Shown here in pieces: positions 39,401 to 47,189 of a DNA stretch of 64,000 nt. The notes beneath the pieces were generated by a model. That model did no database searches and was not told where the DNA came from. It was given only the letters and a program-made list of their open reading frames with translations. The translations under genes were made by a program, and so were the position numbers. Position 1 is the first letter of the stretch. Every line of letters starts with the position of its first letter. This stretch comes from Branchiostoma floridae (taxonomy: Eukaryota; Chordata; Leptocardii; Amphioxiformes; Branchiostomatidae). The DNA lies in the NCBI RefSeq assembly GCF_000003815.2, contig NC_049994.1, positions 10,769,751 through 10,833,750 of the forward strand, given 5' to 3'.

Positions 39401-42400
39401 ATACTACAGACATTCATTAAGTAGGACATGGAGTTCAGTATCAATGATTGTAACAACACTAACCTTCGCAGCGTCACTGGAAAGACAGGACTCAGCTCGG
39501 TCACGATTTTCTTCAGTGGAGAAATGAAGTTTTTCCCTGCAGACACAAAAATGTATTACAATGAGGAATTTTGTGTCTGAGTTTATTTGTAGGTGGTATC
39601 TCACTGCACTTGGGGCACCCGTGTGGTACTGCAGGTTTGAAAGATTACTCATCATCATCATCTTCAATACCAATACCAATAGCCCCGCAAGGGGCAACGT
39701 AGGGGAGAGTTGAGGTCCCTGGTTAGGCCAGTAGGCCTCCTGCCTGTCAAGGCAGGACTCAGAGCAATTACCACTGTACATGTGCCAGGCAATTGCAAGG
39801 CAGTCCACTTTGGAATGGTTCTAGGGAAAAACGAAAATTTATAGGCGTCTGTCATGAGCATCCTCCTAACGCCCGGTCCCAAACGGCATTAGCCTATGGG
39901 GCCCTGCTATCTAGATGCCTACCGGCCGTTATTATGATTGTCGCCACAAACCAGCTGTCAACCAATCAGAGAATAGGCTTTTCTTGGGCTTTTGGTTGTC
40001 CAAAGCTGTCTTGCAAAGGCCACTGGGAAGCTATCTGCCAACCATGATACTGTAACAGTGGTATTCAAGGACTGCTAAACCGAAGACGCCTAACGGCTTA
40101 AGCCTTTATGGCCGAACGGTTTGCACGTTCGATTTGTGATCCGGCTGCCCGGGTTCGGCGCGGGTTCGAATCCCGGGAGTCGGGGTGTTGTTTCTTTCTG
40201 TTCTTACTCGCCCCTCTGGTTGTTTCACTGGTTCCCACACCGGGAATCGAACCCGGGCCTTGGCGGTGAGAGCGCCAAATCCTAACCACTAGACCATATG
40301 GGAGACGCCTAACGGCTTAAGCCTTTATGGCCGAACGGTTTGCACGTTCGATTTGTGATCCGGCTGCCCGGGTTCGGCGCGGGTTCGAATCCCGGGAGTC
40401 GGGGTGTTGTTTCTTTCTGTTCTTACTCGCCCCTCTGGTTGTTTCACTGGTTCCCATGCCGACCCTGTGAGTAACAGGCTAGCGGATGTGCCACACAGGG
40501 ATGTCGAACTCGGAGATTCGAGGACGAATCTTGAAAAGAAAAGGGGGAGTAGTGTAACAGTGGTATTCAAGGACTGCTAAACCGAAGACGCCTAACGGCT
40601 TAAGCCTTTATGGCCGAACGGTTTGCACGTTCGATTTGTGATCCGGCTGCCCGGGTTTGGCGCGGGTTCGAATCCCGGGAGTCGGGGTGTTGTTTCTTTC
40701 TGTTCTTACTCGCCCCTCTGGTTGTTTCAATACGTATTACATAGCACCATCCTCCTACGCCCGATCCCCAACGGCTGACTGCCCATATAAGGGTAAGCTC
40801 ATCAATATTTATAAGCAGGGCGACGAGGAAAGTAACTGCGGGTAGGCCATGAGATAGCAGGGCCCCATAGGCTGAGTCAGCTAGCCGTTGGGGACCGTGC
40901 GTAGGAGGATGTGCGTGCGAAGATGAGTTGGTATTTTAGATGTTGACTCCCTGGGGTACCTCCTTGGGCAGGTTTGATTAAACTCTGTGTGTTTATATTT
41001 AGTAATATTATTCATACGTTTGTATAAAACAAGTGCTTTAAAAAAAGCTGTACCTTGCCGGGTAGTAGGGATTTCGTCAGGAAAAGGTACCTCGGCGCTT
41101 CACCAGTGTTCATCAGTTAACATGAGGATCACATCAAAATAATCAGAGACAACCACAGAGTTCCACATGTCGCCCCCCTCCCACCCCAATTCCTGTACGG
41201 GAAAGCTTTAGTGACTTCTCCAGCTGCCAATCCAGTCTCAAATCTATTTTTCACACAATACAAACTCTATCAAGGACATTCATAGTCACAAATGTCTTTA
41301 AAATGTACTTACCTGGCGACTAGTCCCGAAGTTTGCGGCTATTTTTTTGTTTCATGTTGTTGCAATGTACAAAGCGACACCTAGCAACTGTAGTATGAAA
41401 TGCAGCAAAAATCCCCAAGTGTAGGGAAATTTACCTCATTAACATAATCTATGTCAGATAAATTATTGGCACAATAAACCGGTATTGTAAAACTTTTTGA
41501 CCCACAATGAGTATGCATTATTCTTTATTACAAAATAAATTCCTTCTGATGCAATTTTTGATATATCTTTATGATAAACATGGGTTGAAGCGTAGATTTA
41601 TTTACGCTGGACCACATACGTCTAAAATACAGTTTTAATACTGGCCTGCAATGTACCCTTGTCTAACTAAGCCATAAAATTGGGCAAAGAGAAAAGGGCC
41701 TTTGGAAGGGCCTTTGGAAGGGCTGGGTTAACATTGCTTGAACCATTGATCCATCGAACCATGTAAAGATCGGGCCTCATTACCTTGCCGAGCTAAGGCC
41801 CGGCAAGGTAAAAAGTGAGGCGGGTGTTCTTCCTCCTGGGACTTTACCATTTAGTGGCATGCTTGATATGGGTGTCCCACCGCAAATCGTTAGACAGTTG
41901 TACTCCAAGATAGAGGTGGGACTTGACACCGGTGAGGGCTTCTCCGCAGAGGGAGTACTGAGTTATGATGGGGTGCCTTTTATGGGTGATATGGAGGATG
42001 TGACATTTAGAGGGATTGAACGGCATAAGCCAGAATGATTTTGCCATTCTGGTAACGTATCAACATATAAAACCCGACATATAAAAACCGAGTGAGCAAA
42101 GCGAACTCGTTGGTTTTATTCGGTGGTTATAGCAAAGGACCAGGCGTTACGACACCATATACACCTCGGGGTGGGTCATTAACCCTTAATTATGTCATGC
42201 CTAGGCTGCGATAATGTTCGATACAGGTGTTCCGGACAGTGTGATAAAAAGCCGTATCACACAGGCTTCGAAGTTTAATCACACAGGCTTCTATCAAATA
42301 ATTTGAACGGTTTCTGTGCACGCCAGCGCAGCGTCGTCGAAAATTCAAATACCTGATTCGGACATTGGGACATTACTGTTGAAACAATATATTATAGGGC

Positions 42401-46147: not shown

Positions 46148-46270
46148 NNNNNNNNNNNNNNNNNNNNNNNNNNNNNNNNNNNNNNNNNNNNNNNNNNNNN
46201 NNNNNNNNNNNNNNNNNNNNNNNNNNNNNNNNNNNNNNNNNNNNNNNNNNNNNNNNNNNNNNNNNNNNNN
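46148..46270. other. Assembly gap (123 N)
   Basis: Unknown bases directly abutting the second miniature LTR element, so its left flank is not visible apart from five bases. Confidence 0.95.
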
Positions 46271-46275
46271 GCAAG

Positions 46276-46713
46276 TGAAACAACCAGAGGGGCGAGTAAG
46301 AACAGAAAGAAACAACATGCCCCCTACCCGGGATCGAACCGGGGTCGACAGATCACAAGCCACGAACGCTATCATTGTCGCCACAAAAGCACTAGTGCCC
46401 TTGGGCAAGGACGATAGGCAGTACTTAAACACCACTGTTACACTACTCCCCCTTTTCTTCAAGATTCGTCCTCGAATCTCCGAGTTCGACATCCCTGTGT
46501 GGCACATCCGCTAGCCTGTTACTCACAGGGTCGGCGTGGGAACCAATGAAACAACCAGAGGGGCGAGTAAGAACAGAAAGAAACAACATGCCCCCTACCC
46601 GGGATCGAACCGGGGTCGACAGATCACAAGCCACGAACGCTATCATTGTCGCCACAAAAGCACTAGTGCCCTTGGGCAAGGACGATAGGCAGTACTTAAA
46701 CACCACTGTTACA
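46276..46713 (-). mobile_element. Second miniature LTR retroelement, minus orientation
   Basis: Two LTRs of 167 bp (46547-46713 and 46276-46442) appear identical. They flank a 104-bp internal segment (46443-46546) with a primer-binding site TGGTTCCCACGCCG and a polypurine tract GAAGAAAAGGGGGAG. The internal segment and LTR ends match the element at 40051-40729 almost exactly. The LTR centres do not match: here they hold a different tRNA-like stretch with TGGCGACAATG (A-box-like), TTGTGAT and GGTTCGATCCC (B box). Five bases separate it from a gap and no target duplication is confirmed. It is non-coding. Confidence 0.85.
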
Positions 46714-47189
46714 AAGAAGACCCGGTGCTTTTGTTTAGACTGATCAATTATTATTATGAAAGAGAGTCTAATTATCTGCTTTTTGTCCTTTGCATATTAT
46801 CATGAATATAGTCATGCAAGTAAAATTTGTGTTTTGAGCCTTGATGGAGCTTCAGCAACTTGACCTTGACCTCTGGCCTAGAATTCCAATTATGTTTCTC
46901 CTTACAGAAACCTGGACTACTAAGGAAAGAAAGTAGCTATTCAAAGCTTTCGTGAAAGATTTTGCATTCCAAACTATTCCCTCTGTCACAAATTTGTAAC
47001 ATTTTTTTTCAGGAAAACTCAATATTCCTTCAACAATTCCACAGCCACACTCTGAGTATCTTGAATTTTTCCGAAAGCACTTGAATCTTTAAAACTTCAT
47101 TGTGTAGAAGACTTCTCAACAAAACGATAAGGACATTCATGCACACATGTTTTTTCGTTGATATTTTGCACGTTTTGCTCCATCCCAGC

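Follow-up and report, generated by a model that had tools for sequence, protein, structure and literature searches.

In the lancelet Branchiostoma floridae, a stretch of 64,000 nt that was analysed as a whole (referred to as the window) carries a short insertion that resembles an LTR retroelement and has a tRNA sequence lying between its LTRs. The locus raises the questions of what kind of element this is, whether its LTRs carry a Pol III promoter, and how a tRNA came to be part of the insertion.

Structure of the window element

All of the LTR retroelement signs named in the preliminary description were found. There are 177-nt LTRs with TG...CA ends, a primer-binding site (PBS) of the tRNA-Glu type (TGGTTCCCA, starting at position 40448), a purine tract and an ATAC duplication (Table 1). 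The element had also been called protein-less, and an ORF check found no ORF of more than 81 amino acids overlapping it. The layout had been described as two LTRs around about 106 nt; an internal region of 106 nt is indeed present, but the simple arrangement did not hold, as a tRNA-Glu copy and a partial LTR also lie inside. The 325 nt separating the outer LTRs consist of a single C directly after the 5' LTR end, the antisense tRNA-Glu, LTR positions 35-177 and the internal region. The window copy is a composite of LTR, antisense tRNA-Glu(CUC), partial LTR, internal region and LTR. At the inner junction, the tRNA copy stops at the tRNA 5' nucleotide and the LTR restarts 24 nt upstream of its A box. 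The captured tRNA-Glu, which ARAGORN calls a gene, was absent from the first reading and is the unusual part of this locus.

A second family member is found at 46 kb in the same window. It has type B LTRs that are identical to each other and about 70% identical to the type A LTR, and its internal region is 97% identical to that of the type A copy; no matching target duplication was found at its ends, where the flanks read TCTT and CTTG. As a separate observation, the type A element lies within inverted repeats that form a unit of some 1 kb; the arms, at 39859-39945 and 40819-40911, are 75-88% complementary, and the unit resembles a DNA element of the foldback or MITE type.

Table 1. Coordinates of the LTR element features in the window.
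Feature	Position	Strand	Remarks
Whole insertion, 679 nt	40051-40729		between two ATAC copies
Target-site duplication ATAC, 4 bp, left	40047..40050	+	equals 40730-40733
5' LTR, type A, 177 nt	40051..40227	+	TG...CA
A-box-like TGGCCGAACGG, 5' LTR	40109..40119	+	
B box GGTTCGAATCC, 5' LTR	40163..40173	+	
tRNA-Glu copy, anticodon CTC, full-length, 75 nt	40229..40303	-	CCA complement included; antisense to element; ARAGORN; Rfam RF00005, 61.8 bits
Inner LTR (LTR positions 35-177), 143 nt	40304..40446	+	without first 34 nt; identical to 5' LTR
Inner-LTR A-box-like / B box	40328-40338 / 40382-40392	+	
Internal region, 106 nt	40447..40552	+	between inner LTR end and 3' LTR
Primer-binding site TGGTTCCCATGCCG	40448..40461	+	first 9 nt agree unbroken with tRNA-Glu copy
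Polypurine tract	40533..40549	+	
3' LTR, type A, 177 nt	40553..40729	+	differs from 5' LTR at 1 position
3' LTR A-box-like / B box	40611-40621 / 40665-40675	+	
Target-site duplication ATAC, right	40730..40733	+	
Second member, type B, LTR-internal-LTR, 438 nt	46276..46713	-	

Family members and the boxes in their LTRs

Pattern searches of the genome (513 Mb, 431 contigs) found 286 purine-tract/LTR junctions with at most one mismatch and 189 exact matches to an internal marker, and an LTR search gave 1071 first-look candidates, the best 40 of which were scored. The canonical unit elsewhere is LTR-internal-LTR, measuring 429-462 bp in the 30 copies of a strict two-LTR set. The 86 rows parsed included 32 two-LTR copies, 13 solo LTRs and 10 multi-LTR or composite copies with complete ends (the other 31, whose ends were incomplete, were unused), and exact 4-bp duplications were found around 26 of the 32 two-LTR copies and 10 of the 13 solo LTRs. 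Such duplications flanked 24/30 copies of the strict set, by comparison with 13/870 when flanks were exchanged. The family is multicopy and young: the median identity of the LTR pair within an element was 0.994, and 7 of 30 pairs were identical, among loci that, being the best-scoring matches, over-represent young copies and therefore under-represent older ones.

Three LTR types, A, B and C, were distinguished, which differ in U3 and in a tRNA-like head and have most of U5 and the internal region in common, except that the last ~10 nt differ in some type B and C copies. One locus (L048) carries an LTR that by eye is a hybrid, and another (L042) has two unlike LTRs (identity 0.819) that are nonetheless enclosed by an exact duplication, suggesting that template switching occurred between co-packaged RNAs. 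Three-LTR arrays of the form LTR-I-LTR-I-LTR were found at L017, L024, L026 and L095, each with one exact 4-bp duplication, and the array at L095 includes a tRNA copy. Old, diverged tandem members with another purine tract lie at L108, which suggests a long family history. Moreover, the 3' LTR at L003 is without its first 106-109 nt and is fused to the purine tract, with CTAC on both sides by eye; at L104 the 3' LTR at a broken right end passes into a long T tract; and at L094 a tRNA copy passes into a T run and then CA.

An autonomous partner, which the preliminary description had proposed to look for by its PBS and purine tract, was not found genome-wide by two pattern searches that excluded the family's bases upstream of shared 3' motifs, searches that are blind to a helper sharing neither motif or sharing the excluded bases by chance. 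Only miniature members were recovered, namely L104 as the single match upstream of the 3' hairpin and L108 as the single match upstream of the purine tract. Comparing purine-tract with internal-marker places (C1-C8 entries among the first 100 matches listed for each) left 34 of 92 unmatched and isolated no partner, because at least one unmatched place, C7:6558858 (L009), holds a miniature copy in which the marker has changed.

The A and B boxes reported for each LTR were found as a paired pattern in each of the window's three type A LTR copies. This pattern, which was composed after the window sequence had been inspected, matched 3 times in the window and in none of 100 shuffles; the B-box pattern alone matched 4 times (3 in LTRs, 1 in the tRNA-Glu copy), with 0.07 matches expected. 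In the second, type B element neither pattern matched. Across the genome, the B-box core is kept in 109 of 124 near-full LTRs (57/65 type A, 48/53 type B and 4/6 type C), and the strict A-box consensus, counted in LTRs that have a looser B-box pattern, is found in 56/58 type A, 0/49 type B and 0/4 type C LTRs. These sequence patterns support the reading of the element as a miniature LTR element whose LTRs contain Pol III-type boxes.

Conservation of the boxes across copies, by which the promoter idea was to be judged, held for the B-box core and not for the rate of change. Within-family divergence in U3, A box, inter-box stretch, B box and U5 was 0.0104, 0.0116, 0.0299, 0.0169 and 0.0176 for type A (43 distinct rows) and 0.0236, 0.0996, 0.1101, 0.0692 and 0.0511 for type B (46 distinct rows), respectively. 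Divergence of the boxes is below that of the inter-box stretch, yet it is not below that of U3 or, in type B, that of U5. Box conservation as a sign of selection was set aside as unsupported, the type B A box standing at 0.0996 against 0.0236 for U3.

Folding of the LTRs as a tRNA, another check proposed for this element, was poor, with no LTR scoring above the curated cut-offs. Type A LTRs gave sub-threshold matches to the tmRNA model (14.3 and 13.0 bits, gathering 47), which belongs to the same clan as tRNA, the tool having omitted one lower-scoring clan match, and the type B element (46270-46720) gave no tRNA-clan match at E<=10. Type C is the only type that aligned to most of a tRNA (tRNA model positions 8-63, 19.1 bits, gathering 29; tRNA-Sec, 25.7 bits, gathering 47). 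ARAGORN, run on the window and on 18 loci, called no LTR a tRNA, and no 5S rRNA match was found at E<=10 in 39500-41500 or 46270-46720.

These data bear on whether the family could be a plain Pol II-driven miniature LTR element, in which the boxes would be an inactive relic of a past SINE insertion. The poor tRNA fold and the box divergence relative to U3 would fit such a relic, as would a TTTT directly upstream of the A box in 53/53 type B, 6/6 type C and 18/65 type A LTRs and a T8 run in U5 of the old member L108. Outside that pre-A-box site, however, only 1 of 124 LTRs and none of 30 internal regions contain TTTT, which is what a Pol III transcript would require, even though the absence of TTTT from the window LTR by itself is not significant (0.06 by shuffling), and the B-box core has been kept in all three types though their heads differ. 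Taken together, the Pol II reading is considered rather unlikely, and the tRNA-derived A/B-box head of the LTRs is most likely where a Pol III transcript would start.

Primer-tRNA copies and the probable origin of the composites

The CCA end is added to mature tRNAs post-transcriptionally and is absent from eukaryotic tRNA genes. A 38-nt pattern for antisense tRNA-Glu matched 52 genome places with at most 2 mismatches, of which 43 start with TGG, the CCA complement, and 9 do not; gene-like copies are undercounted here because the pattern itself contains TGG. An LTR-like end, a test whose LTR-end part a random 8-mer passes about 3% of the time, directly precedes 31 of the 43 CCA-bearing places and none of the 9 others, leaving 12 CCA-bearing copies without such a preceding pattern. 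Among perfect CCA-bearing copies, 21/22 directly follow an LTR-like end. These sequences identify mature tRNA-Glu(CUC) as the primer for reverse transcription. Junctions of the main U5 type number 136, and 18 of them, or about 1 in 8, bear a tRNA copy of at least 26 nt. In the 100 of these 136 junctions that were listed, the PBS edge reads tRNA-like CACACCG in 23 (composites counted) and CACGCCG or CATGCCG in 75; copies that are normal in other respects may therefore also inherit short tRNA-templated stretches. No excess of changes was found opposite A58 of the tRNA copies (1/48, in a search that allowed at most 3 mismatches). Besides the window copy, ARAGORN made gene calls on tRNA copies at 9 of 18 other loci scanned.

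Twenty-two composites were read (the window copy, 5 from the first loci and 13 plus 3 fetched later), 15 of which belong to the 43 CCA-bearing places. In all 22, the tRNA copy begins one nucleotide past the LTR end; 16 were chosen by a pattern that requires this start position, and the 6 that came from LTR or internal searches agree. The LTR end at L099 is CC rather than CA. In 6 composites the copy spans 75/75 nt of the tRNA, and in 15 it is 65 nt or longer. The sequence beyond the copy varies. By eye, it is a short U5-end piece in four cases (L001, L093, L097, L101) and a complete LTR in three, with AG (L048, L086) or TTAG (L031) immediately before the TG of this second LTR; the nucleotides that separate purine tract and LTR end in AG. 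The window copy is the one case in which the LTR resumes from position 35. Also by eye, L095 continues into the internal region, joined at a common CCA, L098 continues into a type B LTR from a common TCCT, and the tRNA copy of L051 lies inside a type B LTR. In three further cases (L102, L105, L106) an inverted U3 or LTR follows by eye, as if the new strand had copied the plus-strand U3 end, and in eight (L091, L092, L094, L096, L099, L100, L103, L107) the copy runs, by eye, into flank or an irregular end.

LTR-type ends on both sides were found in 10 of the 22 composites, and 8 of these 10 are enclosed by exact 4-bp duplications; flanks of the other 2 agree at 3 of 4 bp, and exchanging flanks among the two-ended composites gave exact duplications in 0/90. 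L098, which has a right LTR end and no left TG, stands outside these ten. An ATAG/ATAG duplication is found at the outer ends of L051, and no exact duplication was seen by eye at L105, with its inverted right end. For L096, the end may be a GGTT duplication located in the tRNA copy; for L107, a GATA duplication that stops inside the tRNA copy is possible, unless the copy continues imperfectly.

Taking these results into consideration, the window element very probably belongs to a non-autonomous Helenus-type (TRIMp3) family of ~430-460 bp, and was integrated as a composite with plus-strand strong-stop DNA that extends through the primer tRNA. The DNA sequence directly shows the tRNA copy, its junctions and the duplications, and the order of events suggested for them would be as follows. 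A Pol III transcript would begin at the A/B-box head of the LTR, and tRNA-Glu(CUC) would prime minus-strand DNA at the PBS. A helper acting in trans, probably Ty3/Gypsy given the 4-bp duplication and the published Helenus elements (Kojima 2024), would carry out reverse transcription and integration. Plus-strand DNA started at the purine tract would copy U3-R-U5 and then the primer tRNA.

Plus-strand synthesis normally halts opposite methylated A58, after ~18 nt of the primer tRNA. In the composites it would pass this stop, with the tRNA 5' end reached in 6/22, and the over-long strand, unable to pair simply with the PBS complement, may continue on other ends in the particle. These alternative acceptors would include the minus-strand 3' end (window), the left end of finished cDNA (the class with AG before an LTR), a U5 end and a U3 end. 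In the window copy, the 3' end of the strand would have moved to the minus-strand 3' end at the RNA 5' end, i.e., LTR position 34/35. From this one junction it is plausible that the RNA 5' end, and a Pol III start, lie at position 34/35. A genome search for LTR A broken at that point gave 0 matches, as did a control point, with a pattern that, through a single chance base, does not match even the junction in the window. Products that again have LTR-type ends would then integrate as one piece with a 4-bp duplication.

Alternatively, the composites could be post-integration rearrangements among neighbouring copies, by unequal recombination, gene conversion or nested insertion. Recombination has been reported to explain most complex elements (PMC1950507), and the lancelet family does include three-LTR arrays (L017, L024 and L026), an LTR-tRNA unit lying by eye within another LTR (L051) and irregular right ends in 8/22 composites. 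However, the exact duplications around 8/10 composites and around these three arrays point to single integrations, for which exact flanking duplications were the criterion in the same study (PMC1950507), and recombination alone does not yield a tRNA copy that bears CCA and is attached at the primer position, so that this explanation appears improbable. That the element or its relatives inserted by target choice beside tRNA-Glu genes that were already there, in the way that tRNA genes are targeted by Ty3-like elements, would account for tRNA-Glu adjoining LTR-like ends at many places, but it is largely refuted and very improbable because the abutting copies carry the CCA complement (31/43 after LTR-like ends vs 0/9 without it) and because the duplication encloses LTR and tRNA together in 8/10 composites.

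Relation to known elements and significance

The preliminary description knew only the plant element Cassandra as a comparable case and suggested that a tRNA-bearing animal counterpart would be a new class. Neither idea can be maintained, because tRNA-bearing miniature LTR elements have already been published as Helenus, from fungi, six animal phyla including Chordata, and one plant, and have been joined with Cassandra and Ajax as TRIMp3 (Kojima 2024, PMC10886601); the window family is a new member. As described there, Helenus elements are non-coding, measure 311-1263 bp and have two LTRs, a PBS and a polypurine tract, with a 4-bp duplication in animals and proposed mobilisation by an autonomous Gypsy element sharing the PBS or purine tract (PMC10886601). 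The lancelet family resembles them in its absence of proteins, a PBS complementary to a tRNA 3' end, the purine tract, the 4-bp duplication, tRNA-derived A and B boxes in LTRs that mostly contain no functional tRNA, and tandem arrays, there seen in LTR-11_DR (PMC10886601). Size, boxes and duplication agree with the Helenus features, the strict box A being found in type A only, and Pol III use in the lancelet family is plausible in agreement with the published elements. Inherited primer-tRNA copies set the lancelet family apart: the Results and Discussion of PMC10886601 make no mention of them, and neither 'full-length tRNA' nor lancelet, amphioxus or Branchiostoma occurs in its main text. A literature search of openly licensed PMC papers also found no report of inherited primer-tRNA copies in LTR elements or of lancelet miniature LTR elements.

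Other systems show parts of the same picture. Cassandra likewise has a Pol III-type promoter within its LTRs and forms tandem LTR arrays (PMC7215508), but it is a plant element with 5S rRNA, whereas the lancelet family is of tRNA type. Multi-LTR insertions with one duplication pair, for which abnormal template switching was invoked, have been described in Triticeae (Sabot & Schulman 2007, PMC1950507), without a tRNA copy; 'tRNA' does not occur in the text of that paper. An HIV provirus flanked by tRNA-Gly also has a CCA-bearing reverse-transcribed tRNA, of 67 nt, joined to an LTR (PMC12220202). In that report it concerns one cultured clone, the tRNA-Gly is not the primer and self-primed copying was proposed (PMC12220202), whereas the lancelet insertions are recurrent and in the germline. 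For Ty1, titles cited in PMC5371799 state that the primer tRNA is not inherited and refer to plus-strand strong-stop transfer.

The family differs from a tRNA-derived SINE by its TG...CA LTR pairs and 4-bp duplications. Such SINEs have no LTRs, a 3' tail in common with a LINE and duplications of variable length. A strong-stop DNA model for the origin of tRNA-SINEs, reportedly proposed by Ohshima et al. 1993, is said to predict genomic tRNA joined to U5-R strong-stop DNA. The lancelet composites, whose other strand reads tRNA-CCA-U5'-R'-U3', are like this prediction and unlike the model in that the 22 units read have differing junctions. A text search of PMC3747384 for the strong-stop model gave no occurrence.

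The tRNA-bearing miniature LTR class is known, and what is unusual here is the recurrent germline insertion of primer-tRNA-bearing strong-stop DNA. On balance, it seems probable that this animal LTR element often integrates plus-strand strong-stop DNA that includes a reverse transcript of the primer tRNA which is long and in some cases complete. If so, the insertions would be germline fossils of aberrant reverse-transcription intermediates, which would identify the primer and suggest the RNA 5' end, and they would provide many natural records of how the reverse transcriptase of an LTR element behaves at a tRNA. CCA-bearing retro-tRNAs could then exceed the gene-like copies of one tRNA (43 vs 9, with a pattern that undercounts the gene-like ones), and retro-copies may be counted as tRNA-Glu genes in the lancelet genome, which calls for caution in tRNA annotation. 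Moreover, the units would represent the tRNA plus strong-stop precursors of tRNA-SINEs proposed by the long-standing model, and would bear on the possible origin of tRNA-headed SINEs.
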